Shown: piece after piece, positions 147 through 7,093 of the stretch
How the letters are laid out: each line of letters starts with the position of its first letter
Numbering within the stretch: the stretch's first letter is position 1
Source of the DNA: a virus
Virus record (IMG/VR): IMGVR_UViG_3300009068_000208
Coordinates: 1-23,132 of that record
Strand: one strand, 5' to 3'
Length of the DNA: 23,132 nt
Made by a program: the position numbers and the translations under genes
Notes under the pieces: model-generated
Databases searched by the model: none
The model's input: the letters and a program-made list of their open reading frames with translations, nothing else
What the model was told of the DNA's origin: nothing

Positions 147-179
147 CCCCGCAGCTGCGTTTTCCAATCAGCTGCGGGG
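147..179. terminator. perfect 11-bp hairpin after the tRNA core and at the integrase stop
   Basis: CCCCGCAGCTG (147-157) and CAGCTGCGGGG (169-179) are perfect inverted repeats around an 11-nt loop. Read on the plus strand, the hairpin is followed by CGTTTTCC, a short T-run, 26 nt after the tRNA CCA end, so it could terminate a reconstituted tRNA-Phe transcript. Read on the minus strand, the integrase stop codon (TGA, 168-170) falls at the edge of the loop and the stem is followed by TCCGACC with no T-run, so it is a poor intrinsic terminator for int. The phage may carry the host tRNA terminator along with the tRNA end. Confidence 0.45.
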
Positions 180-1268
180 CGTTTTCCAATCGATGTTCTG
201 GAAGCGTTGCTGGACGGCCCCGAGAACCTCGGTCTGGGCGACCGTGCGGTCGGCGTCGCGGCCGTAAATTCCCGCCATGTGGATCGACCGATCGCCGATC
301 GCGGCCGAGACGCGCCAGTCCGATTCCTGGGCCTGGCGGGCGAAGCTGCCGATGGTGTGGCGGGCGCCGTGGAAGGTGCATCCCTCGCCCAGCTGGCCCT
401 CGGCCGTCAGGCGCCGCACCAGGCGGAAGAACCCGGCCCGGTAGCCTGAGGCGGACCAGGGCGTCCCGGCGCGGGTGACGGCGATCTGTACGGCCCCGCC
501 CCGGTTGACCCGGGCGGCCTCAAGCATGGCCTGGAAGACGCCGGTCACCGGGGCCTCGCACGGTTCGCCGTTCTTGCGGGCCCGCCAGCGCAGCCGGGTC
601 CCATCGTAAGCGGCCCAGGTGACGCCCAGAGCGTCGCCTTGGCGCATTCCGGCAAAGACCGCGAGGGCGAAGGGCAGGGCGACCTGGAAGGGCGCCTCGG
701 CCAGGAAGGCCTCGACCTCCGCCGCCGACCAGGCGCGGTTCAGGCTGGCCTCGCCCGAGGGCTTGCGGATCAGGCGCATTCCCATGGCCGGGTTGACGTC
801 GATCCAGCCCCGGGCCCGGCCCCATTCCAGCACCAGCCTAAGCACCTGCACTACGTAGTTGGCGAAGCGCCGGCCCCGGGCCGTGGCGGCCTTGTCCTGC
901 AGCTTCTGGATCTGGGCGCGGGTGACGGCGCGGACGGTCGCCGTCTCGGCGGCGTCGCCCAGCCAGTCGCGCACGGCCTGGTAGTCGGATCGGGTGCGGG
1001 GGCGCAGGGCGCGCCACTGGGGACTGTCGGCGTAGGCCTTCCACAGGGCGGCCAGGGTTCCGGAGGCAAAGGCCTGTTTCACGCCCAGGGCGGCGGCGCG
1101 GGCGTTCAGCCGGGCGACCTCGGCCAGGCCCTCTTGGGTCGCCGGGTCATGCTGGAGGCGCAGGCCCGAGGCGCGGTGATACCAGTACAGAACCGCCGCG
1201 CCGGACGCCAGGCGGCGGCGGACGGCCTTAAGGCCGGGCGGGGCGGGATAGCGTCTCTTGGCCGGCAC
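168..1268 (-). CDS. int: tyrosine site-specific recombinase (phage integrase)
   Basis: The 366-aa protein is a phage-type tyrosine recombinase that would catalyse integration and excision at the neighbouring tRNA-Phe core. A core-binding SAM-like segment lies at about residues 70-160 and the catalytic domain at about 180-345. Catalytic residues are visible: R209 in AGMRQGDAL, K232 after a beta turn, H300 and R303 in FHGARHT, and nucleophile Y335 in AGIYGRD. The usual LGH/W position reads IGDRS, so D326 replaces the common His or Trp. The start is GTG at 1266-1268 with a weak ribosome-binding site. It is the last gene of the leftward operon and overlaps the 68-aa gene before it by 41 bases. 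Its stop lies in the hairpin next to the attachment core. Family assignment is firm; the target site is inferred from position. Confidence 0.95.
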   Translation of the reverse strand: MPAKRRYPAPPGLKAVRRRLASGAAVLYWYHRASGLRLQHDPATQEGLAEVARLNARAAALGVKQAFASGTLAALWKAYADSPQWRALRPRTRSDYQAVRDWLGDAAETATVRAVTRAQIQKLQDKAATARGRRFANYVVQVLRLVLEWGRARGWIDVNPAMGMRLIRKPSGEASLNRAWSAAEVEAFLAEAPFQVALPFALAVFAGMRQGDALGVTWAAYDGTRLRWRARKNGEPCEAPVTGVFQAMLEAARVNRGGAVQIAVTRAGTPWSASGYRAGFFRLVRRLTAEGQLGEGCTFHGARHTIGSFARQAQESDWRVSAAIGDRSIHMAGIYGRDADRTVAQTEVLGAVQQRFQNIDWKTPRS

Positions 1269-1434
1269 GGCTCACCCAATCGTCATCGTCATTCACAGGA
1301 ACGCCGGGGGCCGGTCGTCGAGTCAAGAGCCGCAGGGCCCCGTCCCGCCCGATCTCGACGGCCTGGACCTCGAGGCCGCCCGCGAGGACGGCCCGGATCG
1401 CCCGCTCGACGTCGGTCTGGCGGAAGAGGCTCAC
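1228..1434 (-). CDS. small protein next to integrase (possible excisionase/directionality factor)
   Basis: This is a 68-aa protein starting at GTG (1432-1434), chosen because that codon overlaps the stop of the upstream gene as GTGA. The N-terminal half reads FRQTDVERAIRAVLAGG, then a short beta-like stretch (VQAVEIGRDGALRLL) and an acidic NDDDDW motif near residues 48-53. I recall small proteins of this look beside integrases in alphaproteobacterial prophages, but know of no assigned function. Its frame runs 41 bases into int, so the two are probably translationally coupled. The size and place would suit an Xis-type directionality factor. No classic MerR-like Xis motif is seen, so that role is only a suggestion. 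Confidence 0.7.
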   Translation of the reverse strand: MSLFRQTDVERAIRAVLAGGLEVQAVEIGRDGALRLLTRRPAPGVPVNDDDDWVSRAGQETLSRPARP

Positions 1435-1595
1435 CGGGGAAAGGCCCCGGCGATCAGGGCCACCAGAAAGCCCAGCCCAGCGCCCCCGAGGCCGAGGGCC
1501 AGCCACTCGGGACAATAGACGTCGCGCGGGCGCGGGCCGTAGGTCGGCGATCTGAGGGCGTCGACGATATGGTGGAAGAGCCAGGCGGGGTTCAC
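1431..1595 (-). CDS. 54-aa single-pass membrane protein
   Basis: A short gene with start GTG at 1593-1595, overlapping the previous stop as GTGA, and stop TGA at 1431-1433, overlapping the next start in the same way. The N-terminal 30 residues are polar and aromatic (NPAWLFHHIVDAL, then PTYGPRPRDVY). The C-terminal 22 residues form a clear hydrophobic Gly/Leu/Ala segment (WLALGLGGAGLGFLVALIAG) ending FPR. It would be a small inner-membrane protein with a cytoplasmic or periplasmic head. No family is recognised. Position in the early left operon fits an accessory lysogeny or superinfection function, but nothing in the sequence proves this. The overlapping frame and hydrophobic segment support it being real. 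Confidence 0.65.
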   Translation of the reverse strand: MNPAWLFHHIVDALRSPTYGPRPRDVYCPEWLALGLGGAGLGFLVALIAGAFPR

Positions 1596-1840
1596 TGATC
1601 AGCCTCCTTGAGCAGAGCGTCGATTTGGTCCCGAAGGTCATTCCATTGAAACAGGTGCGCGACCGGCTTAATCTCTCTCAACAGCCCCTCCAGCGCCTTG
1701 ATCCTTTCGGCGGATGCGGCATGACTAGCTAAAAGGGCCCCGAGGTCGGTCACCTTGACCATGACTCCGACACTCTCGAGCGCCACAAGGCGATCGAGTT
1801 CTCGCCTGAGCCGGTCTATCGCTTCCTGTGTGGATCCCAT
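1592..1840 (-). CDS. small coiled-coil protein, unknown function
   Basis: An 82-aa protein predicted to be mostly helical. Heptad-like stretches (EAIDRLRRELDRLVALE, then AERIKALEGLLREI and LRDQIDALLKEAD) suggest a coiled coil. The preferred start is the ATG at 1838-1840, which overlaps the upstream stop as TGATG and has a GGAGG about 8 bases upstream. A GTG one codon earlier (1843) is the alternative. The stop overlaps the next start as GTGA. Base composition is visibly less GC-rich than the neighbours, which may mean separate acquisition. No domain is recognised. Confidence 0.7.
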   Translation of the reverse strand: MGSTQEAIDRLRRELDRLVALESVGVMVKVTDLGALLASHAASAERIKALEGLLREIKPVAHLFQWNDLRDQIDALLKEADQ

Positions 1841-2085
1841 CACCCGACCCTCCGCAGGATCGCCGCGTCGCGGCGCACGGCGCGGCAGGCGGCGCGCAGC
1901 TGGCGGACCTGGAGGCGCAGGGCGGAGGTCTGGCCCTGCAGGCGGGCGAGGGCCAGCTCGGCGATCTCGGCGGCGGCGGGGGTGGTCCAGCTGCCGGTCA
2001 GGCCTCGGGTCACCGTGGAGATCTCGGCCTGGACGGCGTCGATCAGGGCTCGGGTCTCGAGGGGAATGGGTACGGTTTGCATCAT
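1840..2085 (-). CDS. 81-aa helical protein, unknown function
   Basis: The start ATG at 2083-2085 overlaps the upstream stop as ATGA; a second ATG follows directly. A GGAAG ribosome-binding site sits just before it. The protein is Ala/Arg-rich and probably all-helical (LIDAVQAEISTVTRG, AEIAELALARLQGQ, ALRLQVRQLRAACRAV), ending in a basic tail. The composition would suit a small helical bundle or nucleic-acid-associated protein, but no family is recognised. It is one link in the leftward chain of overlapping genes that ends at int. Confidence 0.65.
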   Translation of the reverse strand: MMQTVPIPLETRALIDAVQAEISTVTRGLTGSWTTPAAAEIAELALARLQGQTSALRLQVRQLRAACRAVRRDAAILRRVG

Positions 2086-2426
2086 GCGGCTTCCTTTCGG
2101 GTGAGGCCCAGGCGCAGGGCGTCCAGGGCGGCGTTTATTTCAGTGGGGGTCAGGCCGGAGGCGACCAGGGCCAGGGGCACGGCCTCGCGCTGCCCCTCGA
2201 CCCGGCCGAGGATCACGGCGGCGCAGTCGGGGGCGGCCACGGCCGTGAGGGCCGAGGGCAGGCGCCCCAGCCGATGGCAGAGGGCGGCGACGGCCCGGTT
2301 CGGGCTGACGGCGTAGTGGGTGATCCAGCGCGCGGCGGAGCCGAGGGCCTGGCCCTCAACGCCGGGAGCGTAGGGCGTGAGGCCGACGGCGACGTCGCGG
2401 CGGTTGTGGGGGGCGGGGGCGGTCAT
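2082..2426 (-). CDS. 114-aa protein, unknown function
   Basis: The start chosen is ATG 2424-2426, which overlaps the upstream stop as ATGA; an in-frame ATG six codons earlier (2444) is less likely. The middle contains AVAALCHRLGRLPSALT and a hydrophobic stretch about AAPDCAAVILGRVEG. The C-terminus has a helix-turn-helix-like SGLTPTEINAALDALR segment followed by a basic end. There is no transmembrane segment. It may be a small DNA-binding or regulatory protein, but this is weakly supported. Coupled to both neighbours by overlaps. Confidence 0.65.
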   Translation of the reverse strand: MTAPAPHNRRDVAVGLTPYAPGVEGQALGSAARWITHYAVSPNRAVAALCHRLGRLPSALTAVAAPDCAAVILGRVEGQREAVPLALVASGLTPTEINAALDALRLGLTRKEAA

Positions 2427-2641
2427 GGGGCGGTCTGAGGACACAGCTGCCGACCTTTGCGGCCGGGCTTCCAGACCTGGCCTTCACGCTCAGCGCGCAC
2501 GCCGTGGGCAATTTCCCAGGGCTCGCGGTCAAACAGATCTGCCACAAGGTAAACGCTGATCAGGTATCCCTCGCCCTGGTTTCCAATGTCCACGTCATCG
2601 TTGTTGGCGATCCACTGGACCGCTTCTGTAAGCGTAGGCAT
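2423..2641 (-). CDS. 72-aa acidic protein of unusual composition
   Basis: The start is ATG 2639-2641 with GGAGG seven bases upstream; a GTG one codon earlier is possible. The N-terminal half is acidic (AVQWIANNDDVDIGNQGEGY), followed by a hydrophobic strand-like ISVYLVADLF and a charged tail. Codon use is clearly less GC-rich than flanking genes (AAC, GAT, GTA and TCT-type codons), which suggests later acquisition. No family is recognised. Position in the early left operon would allow an accessory or anti-defence role, but that is speculation. Confidence 0.65.
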   Translation of the reverse strand: MPTLTEAVQWIANNDDVDIGNQGEGYLISVYLVADLFDREPWEIAHGVRAEREGQVWKPGRKGRQLCPQTAP

Positions 2642-2672
2642 CACGCGACCTCCGGGTTGATTAGGGGGGCGG

Positions 2673-2987
2673 TCACAGGCCGGCCCTCAGGGCGAGAAAG
2701 ACGGCGGCGAGGCCCAGGGCGACGATCAGGAAGTCCTGAACCGGCGGCCAGGTCCGGGCGGCGATCGGCGGGGCCAGGGCCTCGGGAGGGCTGGTAGCGT
2801 CGGCGACAGCTTCGCGGGGAGGGGTCCAGCCCTCGCGGATCAGCAGGGCCTGAAACTCGGCCTCGAAGTCCTCCGGGGTGTCGTACTCCAGGACATTGTC
2901 GGCGTGCATGAGCACCAGGCGGGGCTCAAAGGCCGGCGTTCGGGCGACGGCCAGGGCGGGGAATTGCAGGACTTGGGCGGTAGTCAT
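2673..2987 (-). CDS. 104-aa C-terminally membrane-anchored protein
   Basis: This is the first gene of the leftward operon. The start ATG 2985-2987 has a good GGAGG ribosome-binding site; the frame is open farther upstream, but that part is intergenic in character. The soluble N-terminal 80 residues include an acidic YDTPEDFEAEFQALL helix. The protein ends in a hydrophobic helix (DFLIVALGLAAVFLALRAGL), so it looks tail-anchored with the bulk in the cytoplasm. No family is recognised. Being first after the proposed left operator, it would be expressed as soon as repression is lifted. Confidence 0.7.
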   Translation of the reverse strand: MTTAQVLQFPALAVARTPAFEPRLVLMHADNVLEYDTPEDFEAEFQALLIREGWTPPREAVADATSPPEALAPPIAARTWPPVQDFLIVALGLAAVFLALRAGL

Positions 2988-3041
2988 CTGGGCCTCCGTT
3001 GCGGCCCGGGTGGGCCGGTGACAACGGAAACGTGCGCCTGA

Positions 3042-3071
3042 TTTGCGGAAAAGGCAACGAAATGTTGCAAC
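3042..3071. promoter_or_regulatory. divergent control region with inverted repeat (putative left operator)
   Basis: The 145-bp gap between the leftward operon (start 2987) and the HIRAN gene (start 3133) holds GCAAC-GAAAT-GTTGC (3054-3068), continued by the 8-bp palindrome GTTGCAAC (3064-3071) and preceded by TTTGC (3042-3046). The same CAAC-N5-GTTG design appears between the repressor and the Cro-like gene at 4386-4398. Sharing between the two divergent regions suggests an operator for the S24 repressor or for the Cro-like protein. No convincing -35/-10 pair could be placed here by eye. Confidence 0.45.
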
Positions 3072-3132
3072 CGCGCCATCTGGCGGACCCCACAAAGGCG
3101 GGTTTAGGTGCCGCCTAGCCTTGGAGGGGCCA

Positions 3133-3627
3133 ATGGATCTGGTGACGCAAATTGGATTGCTGGTGGTCTTCGGCGGGGTGGTCTGGGGCCTCGCCAAGCT
3201 GTTGGGAATAGGTCGTCCGGCCCGGTCGGCGCCCGCGGCTGTTGTCCACGAGCTGGAGGGCGACGGGGATTTCGAGACCGACGTGGTCGGGGAGTCCTAT
3301 TACCAGGACGCCCTGGAGGCGATCGCGGGCCCGAAGACCAAGTCCGGGGTCGAGCTGGAGGTGAAGGCCCGGCTGGTCCCCGAGCCCGAAAACCCGCACG
3401 ACACCAACGCCGTGGCGGTCTACATCGAGGGCCGGAAGGTCGGCCACCTGCCGCGCGACATGGCGGCGGAGTGGGTCGCCACCCTGGCCCGGCGCGGGGA
3501 TCCGCAGCGGGTCGTCGAGGTCGATGCAAGCATCACCGGCGGCTGGCGGCGCGAGCGGCGGGGCGGCGGGATCTCGGAAGGGTCATTCGGCGTTTCGCTC
3601 GACATCTTCGACGACCTGGACGACTGA
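3133..3627 (+). CDS. membrane-anchored HIRAN domain protein
   Basis: A 164-aa protein. The start ATG 3133 has GGAGGGG just upstream; the frame is open to 3043 but the earlier part is the control region. Residues 5-25 form an N-terminal membrane helix (LVTQIGLLVVFGGVVWGL). Residues about 50-130 match the HIRAN fold: VVGESYYQDAL, then ENPHDTNAVAVYI and RKVGHLPRD. In known proteins such as HLTF and SWI/SNF or nuclease fusions, HIRAN recognises DNA ends, especially 3' ends; stand-alone bacterial versions are mostly uncharacterised. The C-terminus is Gly/Arg-rich, then acidic (DIFDDLDD). It is convergent with the repressor gene with only six bases between stops, and may be expressed from the lysogen. 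Domain call is good; the job is unknown. Confidence 0.85.
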   Translation: MDLVTQIGLLVVFGGVVWGLAKLLGIGRPARSAPAAVVHELEGDGDFETDVVGESYYQDALEAIAGPKTKSGVELEVKARLVPEPENPHDTNAVAVYIEGRKVGHLPRDMAAEWVATLARRGDPQRVVEVDASITGGWRRERRGGGISEGSFGVSLDIFDDLDD

Positions 3628-3633
3628 GGGGCC

Positions 3634-4305
3634 TCAGCCGCCCCGGAACCGGACCGGATACACGCCCTTGACGTCGGTCAGGGAGAAGCAGACGTCCTCT
3701 TCGGGCAGTCGCTGGCGCACCTTCAGGACGCCGTTTGCCGACCCCAGATATTCCTTCACGTAGATCTCGCCGGTCAACATCTCGACGACGCACCCGTCAC
3801 CGCGCCGGGGCCACTGGCTGGTGTCGTAGATGACCAGGTCGCCACTTTCCACATAGCCGGTCATGGAGTCGCCTGCGACCCGCAGGGTCCGGGCATTGGC
3901 TCCGAACATCCATGAGACGTCGATGATCTGTTCGATCTCGCCGCCATCGTAGATCTGCGGGCCCAGGGCGGAGGCCCTGACCCTGCCCAGGACGGACAGC
4001 TCGTAGTGGCGGGGCGGGGCCTCGCCTGCACCTGATGGCAAGGCTGCCGTTCCGGACAGCCGCTCGGCCTCGCGCAACAGGTCTTCCCGCTGAAGCCCCA
4101 GGGCCCGGGCAATCTGCGCCTGGACGTCTGACCTCAGGATATTCTGGCGCTCGCCGGCTTCGTAGTTCTGCCAGGCCTGGCGCGAGACGCCCAAAGCCTC
4201 GGCGGCGGCGGGCTGACTTATGCCCACGCGGACGCGCAGCGACCGGATCGCCGCGGCCATGGCGCGCAGCTCGTCCGAAGCGGACTGGGGGCGTTCCGTT
4301 GACAT
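3634..4305 (-). CDS. CI/LexA-type phage repressor (HTH + S24 peptidase)
   Basis: A 223-aa protein from ATG 4303-4305; an upstream in-frame ATG at 4353 is possible but lies in operator sequence. An HTH_3 domain covers about residues 17-60 (GISQPAAAEALGVSRQAWQN). The C-terminal S24 domain has S147 in AGDSMTG and K184 in IYVKEY, 37 residues apart as in LexA, so the self-cleavage dyad is present. About 36 residues before the serine, where an Ala-Gly bond is expected, it reads RVRASA (A111-S112), and the only Ala-Gly nearby (93-94) is farther away. It would maintain lysogeny by binding the flanking intergenic operators and be inactivated by RecA-stimulated cleavage, if the altered site still allows it. 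It is divergent from the Cro-like gene. Confidence 0.92.
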   Translation of the reverse strand: MSTERPQSASDELRAMAAAIRSLRVRVGISQPAAAEALGVSRQAWQNYEAGERQNILRSDVQAQIARALGLQREDLLREAERLSGTAALPSGAGEAPPRHYELSVLGRVRASALGPQIYDGGEIEQIIDVSWMFGANARTLRVAGDSMTGYVESGDLVIYDTSQWPRRGDGCVVEMLTGEIYVKEYLGSANGVLKVRQRLPEEDVCFSLTDVKGVYPVRFRGG

Positions 4306-4373
4306 ACCCACAGGAAACCGACGGAACACGGCATGATCGACCACGCAATGCATTGCTGCCCATGTAATCTGAA

Positions 4374-4406
4374 TGTTGACAGATGCAACAAAGAGTTGGC
4401 TCTTAA
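4374..4406 (+). promoter_or_regulatory. right operator/promoter between repressor and Cro-like gene
   Basis: Alternating half-sites are seen: TGTTG (4374-4378), CAACA (4386-4390) and GTTG (4395-4398). They give TGTTG-N7-CAACA and CAAC-N5-GTTG inverted repeats. A perfect -35 hexamer TTGACA (4376-4381) lies inside the first half-site. The -10 is weak; the best place is TCTTAA at 4401-4406 with a 19-bp spacer, which would start transcription at or next to the ATG at 4413. Binding here would block the rightward early promoter and could also affect the repressor promoter on the other strand. Confidence 0.55.
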
Positions 4407-4412
4407 CGAACT

Positions 4413-4718
4413 ATGATTCGAACAGCCCCCAGTGAGACGGCCCCCGTCCCGTCGCCGCTTGTCCGCCCGCGCTTGGCTCAGTTTCTCTGGGAGCGCGATA
4501 TTTCTTTCCGTGAGGCGGGCCGGGCGCTCGACCGCACCGGCGAGTGGGTCCGGCTGATCTGCCTACCCTTCGACGACCCGCGCCGGCGCATTCCAGACCT
4601 GCAGGACATGGAGCGCGTCTTTAATTGGACGGGCGGCGTGGTGACGGCGGGAGATTTCTACCCCGCTGCCCTTCGCGGCGTTCCGGGCGAGCGGCCCGGC
4701 GACGGAGGGCGGCCATGA
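4413..4718 (+). CDS. Cro-like HTH regulator
   Basis: A 101-aa protein, divergent from the repressor and first in the rightward early operon. Residues about 20-70 look like a small Cro/CI-type helix-turn-helix: a first helix ARLAQFLWERD-like, then SFREAGRALDRTGEWVRLI as turn and recognition region, then IPDLQDMERVFNWTGGVVTAGDFY. The last stretch matches the usual end of alphaproteobacterial phage Cro-type domains (helix, Gly-Gly, threonine-X-X-aspartate/glycine-phenylalanine). No Shine-Dalgarno is seen before the ATG, and the placed promoter would make the transcript leaderless. Its stop overlaps the next start as ATGA. Role as the lytic-side switch protein is inferred from position. Confidence 0.7.
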   Translation: MIRTAPSETAPVPSPLVRPRLAQFLWERDISFREAGRALDRTGEWVRLICLPFDDPRRRIPDLQDMERVFNWTGGVVTAGDFYPAALRGVPGERPGDGGRP

Positions 4719-5146
4719 TCAAGGAAATCCGCACCGACACGACGGAAATCCGTTTCATCCGCCCAGCCTCCGCCGGTCTGATCGGCGAGGGCAGGGCGCG
4801 GGACGCCGACCGCGCCGCCTGGCTGGCTGCCCTGGGCGACGCCCGGCACGTGGCCCGGGTGCGGCTGGAGGGCCGGGACGTGCACCGGGACGTGCTGGCG
4901 ATCCTCGCCGGGCGGGTCGTGAAGCTGGCGCGCCATCCCTTTCCGGTCGAGTGGGCCAGTGCCCAGGCGCAGGCTGGGGCCTTCCTGGTCCTGGCCAAGG
5001 GGTTCGTGGTCGCCACCCGGCCCGACCTGGTCGAGGTGCTGGCCCGGTCGGTCCTGGCCCTGGCCGAGGGCTGCGGCGAGCTGCTGGACATTCAGGCCGC
5101 CGAGATCGCCGAGCGCGACCGGCTTCGGCAGGGGGGCGGCGCGTGA
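4715..5146 (+). CDS. 143-aa early protein, unknown function
   Basis: The start ATG 4715 overlaps the Cro-like stop as ATGA. The protein begins with a strand-like IKEIRTDTTEIRFIRP, then is helical and Ala/Leu/Arg-rich (RAAWLAALGDARHVARVRLE, LVEVLARSVLALAEGCGELL). It ends in a charged helix, AAEIAERDRLRQGGGA. No membrane segment or known motif is seen. The stop overlaps the next GTG start. Position between the Cro-like gene and replication genes suggests an early regulatory or replication accessory role, unproven. Confidence 0.75.
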   Translation: MIKEIRTDTTEIRFIRPASAGLIGEGRARDADRAAWLAALGDARHVARVRLEGRDVHRDVLAILAGRVVKLARHPFPVEWASAQAQAGAFLVLAKGFVVATRPDLVEVLARSVLALAEGCGELLDIQAAEIAERDRLRQGGGA

Positions 5147-5934
5147 GCGTTCGGCCTGACCCTTCCACCTTCGTGAAACCCGCTGACGTCTGGGCCCGGG
5201 CGATCATCGCCGCAGCCCGGGTGTATGGCGAGGACCCGGTCGAGGCCCTGACCTCGCCGTCCAGTCATGCAAGGGCGAGCAAGCGCAAGAGCCTGCCGGC
5301 GGCCTGCCTGGCGATTTCAGAGGCGACGGGCCTGCCGATTGGCCGGGTGGCGCCCGTGCTGGCCCTGCAACCCTCGGCCGTCCGCTCCCGCAAGGCCTCG
5401 GCAAACCGAGACTTTAAGATGGCCTGGAAGGCCGCCGCGCGCGCCGTGGAGTATGCTTTCTGGCACCCTGAGGCGGCGGAGAGCGTGGCCCAGGCGGTCG
5501 GCGAGCTGGACCTGACCGGCGAGGCCGGGGTTGAGGTTGTGGCGCTGGAGCCCGACGCCGCCTGGGACGCCCAGCTGGCCCAGGCGGTCGAGGCCCTGCC
5601 GACGCCGGAGCCCGAGCCGGCACCTGCGCCACCGTCCGCCCCTGTCCTTCGCCCGCACCCGCCCCTGGCCGGCCGGGTGAACCTGGCCAACGGTCACGCC
5701 TTCGCCCCGCCCTTCCGGCCGGGCCCGCCGCCGCCGACCCAATCGATCGACGGGCGGATCCTCGCCCGCCTGGCCGTCGCGCCGGGAAGCCCCCGGGGCC
5801 TGGCCTCGATCCTCGACATCAAGGAGGCCTTTGTCGCCCAGACCCTGCGGAACCTGGGCCGGGAGGGCCGGGTGACGGCCGCCGACCTGGCCCCCGGCCA
5901 GAGTGACCGCGACCAGGCCTGGAGCGTGGCCTGA
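5143..5934 (+). CDS. two-domain putative DNA-binding protein with proline linker
   Basis: A 263-aa protein starting at GTG 5143 (GTGA overlap with the previous stop). The N-terminal domain (about 12-110) is helical with a helix-turn-helix-like section, AACLAISEATGLPIGRVAPV followed by LQPSAVRSRKAS, somewhat reminiscent of phage replication-initiator or DnaA-like HTH regions. Residues 152-200 are a Pro/Glu/Ala-rich linker (PTPEPEPAPAPP, later RPGPPPP). The C-terminal 60 residues look like a winged helix (DGRILARLAVAPGSPRGLAS, then FVAQTLRNLGREGRV). Its place upstream of primase and helicase makes an origin-binding or regulatory role plausible, for instance at the GAACAGT array. No family is named with confidence. 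Confidence 0.75.
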   Translation: MSVRPDPSTFVKPADVWARAIIAAARVYGEDPVEALTSPSSHARASKRKSLPAACLAISEATGLPIGRVAPVLALQPSAVRSRKASANRDFKMAWKAAARAVEYAFWHPEAAESVAQAVGELDLTGEAGVEVVALEPDAAWDAQLAQAVEALPTPEPEPAPAPPSAPVLRPHPPLAGRVNLANGHAFAPPFRPGPPPPTQSIDGRILARLAVAPGSPRGLASILDIKEAFVAQTLRNLGREGRVTAADLAPGQSDRDQAWSVA

Positions 5935-6506
5935 TGGCGGGGGGGCGGTTCTTCTCGGCCAAGGAAGACGCGGCGATCGTTCAGGCGGTCAAGGATGGCG
6001 CGCGGACCGAGCCGGATTTCCGGCCTCTGGGCCTGGCCCTGGGGCGGCAGTTTCAGTCCCTGCGCCACCGGGCGATCCGGCTGGGCCTGATCCAGAGGGG
6101 GGCGCGCTGCGGCAATCCGCCCAAGGATCCCGAGGTCGCGTCCGAAGACGCGCCCCCGCGCACCACCCGGCGCGGCTGGGATCCGGAGGAAGACGCCTTC
6201 CTGCTGAGGGCCCGGGAGCAAGGCCAGACCGTGCGCGAGATCGGCCTGGCCCTGAACCGCAGCTGGTCGGGGATCGAGGGCAGGCTGCTGCAGCTGGGCG
6301 CCCGCGAGAAGGTGGTCCGCGAATACGTCCACAACCCTGAGCCCGACCGCAGCGTCCAGTCGGCGGCCTGCGCCAAACACGCCCGGGCCTGCCTGAAGGC
6401 GGGGGGCTTCTGGGCCTTCAGCGAACGCCGGGTCGGGGCGATTACCTGGGGCGTCTGCCTGCCCTTGCTGCCGCCCCCGGCCCATCTTTGGAAGGCGGGC
6501 CAGTGA
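5934..6506 (+). CDS. Myb/SANT-like DNA-binding protein
   Basis: A 190-aa protein whose ATG overlaps the previous stop by one base (TGATG). Two Myb/SANT-like helical repeats are seen. The first, residues 5-52, begins RFFSAKEDAAIVQAVKDG and ends SLRHRAIRLGL. The second, residues 80-122, has RGWDPEEDAFLLRAREQG, then VREIGLALNRSWSGIEGRL. Both have the acidic first helix and the basic third helix typical of the fold. The C-terminal 65 residues carry cysteines (C146, C153, C175) and aromatic residues without a clear motif. Such proteins bind DNA; targets here are unknown. Its neighbours are the linker protein above and the methyltransferase below, both overlapping. Confidence 0.75.
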   Translation: MAGGRFFSAKEDAAIVQAVKDGARTEPDFRPLGLALGRQFQSLRHRAIRLGLIQRGARCGNPPKDPEVASEDAPPRTTRRGWDPEEDAFLLRAREQGQTVREIGLALNRSWSGIEGRLLQLGAREKVVREYVHNPEPDRSVQSAACAKHARACLKAGGFWAFSERRVGAITWGVCLPLLPPPAHLWKAGQ

Positions 6507-7093
6507 GCCAGGTTGCGGGCGGTACTCAGTTCGGCCGGCATAGCCTGGCCGACCGGAAGAATGACCTTTACGAGACGCCGCCCTGTGCGACGCGGGCGCT
6601 GATCCCCTTCCTGGACCGGGATCGGGTGATCTGGGAGCCGGCCTGTGGGCCCGGCGCGATTGTGCGCGAGCTGGAGGCGGCCGGGTTCAGCGTCCACGCG
6701 ACCGACCTGGTCGACTACGGTTTGGACGGGGCCTTCGGCGGGATCGACTTCCTGATGGAGCGGCCAGACCGCTGGATGCCGGACGTGATCGTCACCAATC
6801 CGCCCTTCAAGTTGGCCGATGAATTCACACGCCACGCTCTGACCCTGGCCTCGACCGTCTGGATCTTCCAGCGGCTCAGCTGGCTGGAAGGGGCGAAGCG
6901 GGCGGAGCTGATTGAGGGGCACCTGGACCACATCCTCCTGGGGATCGAGCGCCTGCCCATGATGCACCGGGACGGCTGGGAAGGCCCAAAGCTGACCGCC
7001 TCGGCCATGCCCTTCGCCTGGTTCCGGTTCGAGGCCAAGCGCCCGCCGGGCCGGGTGACGCGGTTCGAGCGGATCAGCTGGAGGGGCGCGTGA
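6503..7093 (+). CDS. SAM-dependent DNA methyltransferase
   Basis: A 196-aa class I methyltransferase from GTG 6503, which overlaps the previous stop as GTGA. Motif I is IWEPACGPGAIVRELE (residues 43-58), with the acidic residue of motif II in HATDLVDYG. The catalytic loop is VTNPPF (97-102), the NPPF type found in N6-adenine and N4-cytosine amino-methyltransferases. The early YETPPCATRALIPF segment is usual for compact phage adenine methyltransferases. No separate target-recognition domain is present. It probably methylates phage DNA during early infection, either to evade restriction or to mimic host marks. The target sequence cannot be read from the gene. Confidence 0.85.
   Translation: MSQVAGGTQFGRHSLADRKNDLYETPPCATRALIPFLDRDRVIWEPACGPGAIVRELEAAGFSVHATDLVDYGLDGAFGGIDFLMERPDRWMPDVIVTNPPFKLADEFTRHALTLASTVWIFQRLSWLEGAKRAELIEGHLDHILLGIERLPMMHRDGWEGPKLTASAMPFAWFRFEAKRPPGRVTRFERISWRGA

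Follow-up and report, generated by a model that had tools for sequence, protein, structure and literature searches.

The window analysed here is a whole virus record, IMGVR_UViG_3300009068_000208, of 23,132 bases. Judged by its gene content, it is a tailed temperate phage, because its rightward genes encode replication functions followed by terminase, portal, head and tail proteins, and it is apparently Caulobacteraceae-related. An open reading frame with an ATG start at 3133-3627 (plus strand), preceded by a good ribosome-binding site (GGAGGGG, 3123-3129, plus strand), encodes a 164-residue protein in which a HIRAN domain follows a hydrophobic, putatively transmembrane (TM), N-terminal helix, as assigned from the list of open reading frames, Pfam and an AlphaFold2 model. 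The gene lies tail to tail with a CI/LexA-type repressor gene (cI; 3634-4305, minus strand), and the two stop codons are 6 bp apart. In Pfam scans, which used a longer frame (3634-4353), the repressor combines a helix-turn-helix (HTH) domain with Peptidase_S24 (S24); the start at 4305 is the gene caller's choice. On the other side of the HIRAN gene, an intergenic region of 145 bp (2988-3132, from the gene calls) is common to this gene and to the divergent leftward int operon (168-2987, minus strand), in which the integrase gene (168-1268; phrog_1) comes last. The gene order is int genes, HIRAN gene, cI and rightward genes. In phage lambda, rexAB adjoins cI; the HIRAN slot matches that position, but lies on the strand opposite to cI. 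By Pfam, the two genes flanking the HIRAN gene are not kinases.

The original prediction described this product as a stand-alone HIRAN protein with its own membrane helix, placed beside the repressor of a lysogeny region and possibly serving to exclude superinfecting phages. All three anatomical claims hold, the helix as a prediction, and the interpretation as a whole is partly supported.

A HIRAN domain behind a membrane-type helix

Pfam HIRAN (PF08797) matches residues 45-122 with an E value of 6.1e-13 and a score of 48.9 bits against a cut-off of 24.7; the modelled fold extends to about residue 157, which places the domain at 3265-3603 (plus strand). The AlphaFold2 model, built from 39 aligned sequences, has a mean pLDDT of 90.8 and consists of a helix (residues 3-24), a less certain linker and a compact domain. 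The HIRAN domain of human HLTF is the top-ranked match in Foldseek (E 6.3e-4), and a second structure aligner matches both this domain (Z 7.2, rmsd 3.0 over 89 residues) and lp_0118 of L. plantarum (Z 8.3, rmsd 3.2 over 95 residues). Fold matches ranking under HLTF, Rad5 and lp_0118 were weak and were not used, and NCBIfam gave no match for the protein. The fold and an NPxD motif are held in common with the HLTF HIRAN domain and yeast Rad5. However, HLTF and Rad5 are described as large proteins that combine several domains, helicase and RING domains among them, whereas the window domain stands alone behind its membrane-type helix. Residues N87 and D90, which align with the N and D of the HLTF NPYD motif, are kept in all 47 aligned relatives, and residue 89, which may correspond to HLTF Y72/Y93, is His or Tyr in 41 of the 47. 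According to passages of PMC4666394, Y72 and Y93 of HLTF stack on a dinucleotide. Because these pocket residues are retained, the window domain would most likely bind single-stranded or 3ʹ DNA ends. HIRAN domains also occur in HipL and HipN, and most of the bacterial HIRAN domains covered in the relevant passages of PMC8262856 lack the duplex-binding Phe of HLTF.

The N-terminal segment (3139-3204, plus strand; residues 3-24) is a putative membrane anchor, with a mean Kyte-Doolittle hydropathy over 19 residues (KD19) of 2.03 and a helix in the model. The protein is predicted to be anchored in the inner membrane by this single helix, and the net charge of -1 before the segment and +3 after it suggests that the HIRAN domain is cytoplasmic. 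Of 24 TM-bearing rows (20 viral and 4 genomic), 15 carry more positive charge on the C-terminal flank and 5 on the N-terminal flank, and in 4 the two flanks are equal.

Relatives were compared in a survey of 51 records, comprising the window, Nostoc phage Nsp-JY10 and 49 contigs. Of 124 relatives from a scan of viral contigs 80 were kept, as were 80 of 251 from a scan of genomes, 13 of the latter entering the tree described below. Ahead of the 51-record counts, 38 of 89 rows (the window and L002-L089) were dropped: 23 as near copies (L017, L025, L029, L036, L042, L050, L070-L084, L086 and L087) and 15 as distant or short matches or phage-collection loci (L004, L006-L011, L061-L064, L066, L067, L069 and L085). 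Near relatives are left among the 51 (the eight-row MSWWKRIF group, L028/L046, L014/L019 and L052/L057), and the p values below overstate independence to that extent.

A TM-like segment precedes the HIRAN domain in 20 of the 51 viral HIRAN proteins, compared with 69 of 843 other genes in the surveyed loci (Fisher p 7e-9, the background criterion being a KD19 mean reaching 1.6 within the first 60 residues, with starts partly chosen by hand for the 51 HIRAN proteins and by the gene caller for the background genes). Additionally, an aromatic hydrophobic N-terminus such as MGLLDWLFG or MSWWKRIF is found in 11 of the 31 TM-less HIRAN proteins and in 34 of 774 other genes, under a rule set after the sequences had been seen and with 5 of the 11 coming from one near-relative group. 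When the TM label is mapped on a tree of 64 HIRAN domains, in which 37 of 61 inner branches are unresolved, no fewer than 16 changes are needed, compared with a mean of 19.5 over 500 shuffles, 22 of which gave a value as low; membrane anchors therefore seem to come and go.

It is very improbable that the helix stays out of the membrane and that the protein is a soluble DNA-end binder. The segment is of only moderate hydrophobicity, with Gln and several Gly among its residues, and 31 of the 51 relatives lack a TM segment, as such a binder would allow. However, the KD19 value, the modelled helix and the positive charges that follow the segment argue for insertion, as does the presence of such segments, differing in sequence, in 20 of the 51 viral proteins.

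Recurrence beside repressor-like genes

Repressor positions in the survey are matches to the Pfam families HTH_31, HTH_3 and S24 with E values up to 0.01, some of them below curated cut-offs; these position searches replaced profile searches seeded with a single repressor, which found few. A HIRAN gene lies within 800 bp of an HTH/S24 match in 22 of the 51 records, against 4.0 expected from random placement in the same records. Among these near cases, 13 HIRAN genes follow the match on the same strand, 8 are convergent with it (the window, Nsp-JY10, L003, L020, L024, L032, L045 and L089) and one is divergent (L068, where the HTH/S24 match is weak). The 3ʹ side of the match holds the HIRAN gene in 21 of the 22 (binomial p 1e-5). 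In Nsp-JY10 the neighbour is annotated HTH_XRE, and in L022 two tandem HIRAN genes (4977-5363 and 5379-5759) follow an S24 gene (4435-4977), and the first of them begins on the last base of that gene. Because similar proteins recur beside repressor-like genes in other phages, the window protein is probably a lysogeny accessory. The search for TM-bearing HIRAN proteins next to repressors, which the original prediction had proposed, thus bore out each feature separately, both TM segments and repressor adjacency exceeding background, but not their linkage: 10 of 20 TM-bearing and 12 of 31 TM-less HIRAN genes are adjacent to a match. The remaining 29 of 51 have no detected HTH/S24 match nearby, which may reflect weak detection, fragmentary records or a truly different place.

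Relatives also occur outside lysogeny modules. In L186, of Caulobacteraceae, the HIRAN gene is flanked by a tail gene homologue on one side and the tape measure gene on the other. L012, the nearest row to the window on the tree, has no TM segment and adjoins a tail completion gene, and the HIRAN gene of L188 (6724-7200; N-terminus MNWLAKLFGG) adjoins uvrC, recognised by Pfam UvrC domains, in a chromosomal setting. Such positions would suit a generic moron or a host DNA-repair helper with no phage-specific role. That explanation is doubtful, given the clustering at HTH/S24 matches in 22 of 51 records against 4.0 expected. More widely, tblastn matched HIRAN in 36 of 50,697 phage records, among them small helicase-free proteins that include examples of 93-110 residues. 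Elsewhere, a HIRAN gene without known function is placed in a phage replication module in passages of PMC6469090, and HIRAN genes adjoining HipA/diDNase and ARPP genes are noted in passages of PMC11706625 and PMC9503650.

A comparable position is seen in Caulobacteraceae. In the family to which one Phenylobacterium genome belongs, HIRAN is matched (E up to 1e-6) in 5 and the repressor (E up to 1e-15) in 10 of 299 genomes. At the Phenylobacterium locus itself (L097/L182/L190), the HIRAN gene is convergent with a gene that matches the window repressor (E 1e-5) and, at 22.3 bits, narrowly misses the S24 cut-off of 23.3. This locus also has a divergent operon containing a homologue of the window gene at 2082-2426 (E 1e-13), and its integrase is a homologue of the window's (E 3e-21). 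Its HIRAN protein starts MGLFGWLAKAFGG and has no TM segment.

Neighbourhoods were also compared for the repressor relatives L170-L180 (n = 11), with none obtained for L180. Hydrophobic non-HIRAN proteins occupy the repressor-convergent slot in 2 of these 11. In L170, whose repressor is 38% identical to the window CI, the slot holds a 92-residue hydrophobic protein (6692-6970, minus strand) with MerC as its best Pfam match (E 0.023, under the cut-off), and in L176 it holds a 251-residue protein with a hydrophobic segment. The slot is filled by a 71-residue protein in L172 and by a doubtful gene call in L173, and the repressor's neighbour runs in the same direction in L171, L174 and L177-L179. 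A convergent 204-residue neighbour in L175 was not counted, as a longer stretch gave same-direction genes. Together, these neighbourhoods hint that the repressor-convergent position is a variable cargo slot.

Candidate operators and expression

Two copies of the dyad CAAC-N5-GTTG flank the HIRAN-cI pair: CAACGAAATGTTG at 3055-3067, in the intergenic region between the HIRAN gene and the int operon, and CAACAAAGAGTTG at 4386-4398, in the region between cI and the rightward genes. These are the only two in the 23-kb window (0.14 expected; two were reached in 1 of 100 shuffles), the dyad having been noticed by eye in both regions before it was counted, which makes the low expectation post hoc. 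When the two intergenic regions were shuffled as pairs, any 4-base dyad was held in common in 49 of 5000, and random segment pairs from the window had some common dyad in 372 of 3000 draws. A second dyad, GTTG-N7-CAAC, has a single exact site in the window, at 4375-4389 between cI and the rightward genes. The same dyad occurs exactly twice in the CI relative L170, once in each of the two corresponding control regions (0.10 expected; two were reached in 0 of 200 shuffles). No common operator dyad was found in L190 or L005, which leaves the window and L170 as the basis of the operator argument. From sequence, then, the dyads are candidate CI operators, seen post hoc.

As a dyad is common to the regions upstream of the HIRAN gene and of the rightward genes, CI may control the HIRAN promoter region. 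The protein might then be an early or lytic factor under CI control, keeping the DNA ends of its own phage at the membrane during entry or replication, or protecting those ends from the host's exonucleases. Such a role is unlikely, if appreciably possible. The restriction of CAAC-N5-GTTG to these two regions, the scarcity of common dyads among their shuffled pairs and the matching arrangement in L170 all speak for it. However, the site at 3055 could act on the int genes, the HIRAN gene or both, and might serve the divergent int operon only; some dyad is common to 372 of 3000 random segment pairs; and L190 and L005 do not repeat the pattern. Furthermore, a HIRAN gene close behind a same-direction repressor gene, as in L022, should be made in the lysogen. 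Co-expression with the repressor is more likely in the 13 other records in which the HIRAN gene follows the HTH/S24 match on the same strand; the window gene is convergent with cI and outside its operon, and early or lytic expression is possible there. No sigma-70-like promoters or terminators were found in 2600-4800. The first rightward gene (4473-4718, plus strand) may be Cro-like from its position and its resemblance to a gene of L170; scanned as the frame 4413-4718, it had no family match in Pfam or phrog.

Known systems and possible function

A phage protein of this kind has already been named: thaL, a transmembrane HIRAN gene in a phage lysogeny module, is published and is mentioned once in the main text of its paper, and the passages on it report no function or test. 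The window protein is ThaL-like in its predicted TM segment and HIRAN domain and in its placement in a lysogeny module between int genes and cI. The HIRAN gene of the pneumococcal phage IPP42 (L007; Pfam E 4.5e-10), which is located between the repressor and integrase genes and encodes a hydrophobic stretch ahead of the domain, may be thaL itself. It is much diverged from the window gene (34% identity over a short stretch), and it runs in the same direction as its repressor, whereas the window gene is convergent with cI, a layout found in 7 other of the 51 records. The same-direction layout is not part of the published ThaL name and was not treated as defining. The window protein belongs to a real, recurrent phage protein kind, already named in pneumococcal phages and here in a convergent layout.

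RexAB and Ltp show that prophages deploy membrane proteins against other phages. Lambda RexA/RexB and the RexAB-type system of P. putida are described, in the passages available, as prophage-encoded pairs of a membrane part and a DNA-binding part. RexAB differs from the window protein in consisting of two proteins, of which RexA is RdgC-like; the window has one HIRAN-fold protein convergent with cI, which falls outside the RexAB class and may, by analogy, work like it. Ltp and SieA are membrane-located prophage proteins that block DNA injection, and the passages on them do not mention a DNA-binding domain. The HIRAN domains of HipL/HipN (in passages of PMC8262856) and PDC-M03B belong to candidate toxin-antitoxin or defence proteins.

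The reading most favoured, and a plausible one, is that the protein is a lysogeny-module accessory that holds a DNA-end-binding HIRAN domain at the inner membrane and thereby excludes or aborts other phages; we hold it tentatively, at somewhat less than an even chance. Its anatomy is well supported by prediction, and its function is what we infer from that anatomy. One N-terminal helix would tether the cytoplasmic domain to the inner membrane, where the pocket residues would let it bind single-stranded or 3ʹ DNA ends. The domain could meet the exposed ends of another phage or its recombination or replication intermediates there, either in the lysogen or shortly after infection, and it might then block or abort that phage's infection in the manner of lambda RexAB or Sie proteins. 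Consistent with this are the HIRAN fold and its pocket residues, the enrichment of TM segments and of repressor neighbours, the overlap in L022 and the hydrophobic proteins in the slot of L170 and L176. The precedent of RexAB and Ltp, prophage membrane proteins that stop other phages, is counted on the same side.

Several observations weigh against exclusion. No phenotype is known for any TM-bearing HIRAN protein. TM segments are scattered on the tree and unlinked to repressor adjacency, 29 of the 51 HIRAN genes have no detected repressor-like neighbour, and L012, L186 and L188 place the gene beside tail or repair genes. CI may also control the HIRAN promoter region. PADLOC returned weak matches to the candidate PDC-M03B only (best E 3e-4 for the window protein and 1.6e-5 for its relative L032), and the literature search found no mention of PDC-M03.

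Another membrane role, possible but improbable, is that of a sensor of DNA damage or single-stranded DNA that tunes induction or the lysis-lysogeny decision instead of excluding phages. The 3ʹ-side placement in 21 of the 22 near cases suits such a switch component. SzaL, another pneumococcal lysogeny-module accessory in the thaL paper, affects induction and alters the mitomycin and competence response according to the passages on it; however, SzaL is described as a zinc metalloprotein, not a HIRAN protein. Likewise, RexA is said in the available passages to resemble RdgC and to bias the lambda switch, with DNA binding not strictly needed for exclusion. A link between HIRAN and induction was not found in the literature passages.

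If phage exclusion is true, DNA sensing and membrane defence would be united within a single small protein. More speculatively, and with a rather low probability, the protein may represent a widespread prophage class, a one-protein Rex, that fuses a DNA-end sensor (HIRAN) with a membrane effector (a TM or aromatic hydrophobic N-terminus), responds to an invading phage's linear DNA or recombination intermediates and aborts infection via the membrane. Phage HIRAN proteins are mostly annotated without function; in the survey, a membrane-type N-terminus and a place on the 3ʹ side of a repressor are frequent in one clade, which turns the isolated annotation ThaL into a testable class.

Some further features of the window lie near the HIRAN gene or at the ends of its modules. 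The divergent neighbour of the HIRAN gene (2673-2987, minus strand; 104 residues) has a hydrophobic C-terminus (PPVQDFLIVALGLAAVFLALRAGL), possibly a tail anchor, and the 130-residue product of a similarly placed gene in L190 likewise has a hydrophobic region close to the C-terminus. Among the int genes, a 54-residue open reading frame (1431-1595, minus strand) is hydrophobic in its C-terminal half. At the left end of the window, adjoining the integrase gene, positions 60-121 resemble by eye the 3ʹ part of a tRNA gene ending CCAGGCACCA and are a likely att site; ARAGORN found no complete tRNA there. In the early region, 6488-7093 (plus strand) encodes a DNA methyltransferase-like protein (phrog_799, E 7e-51).
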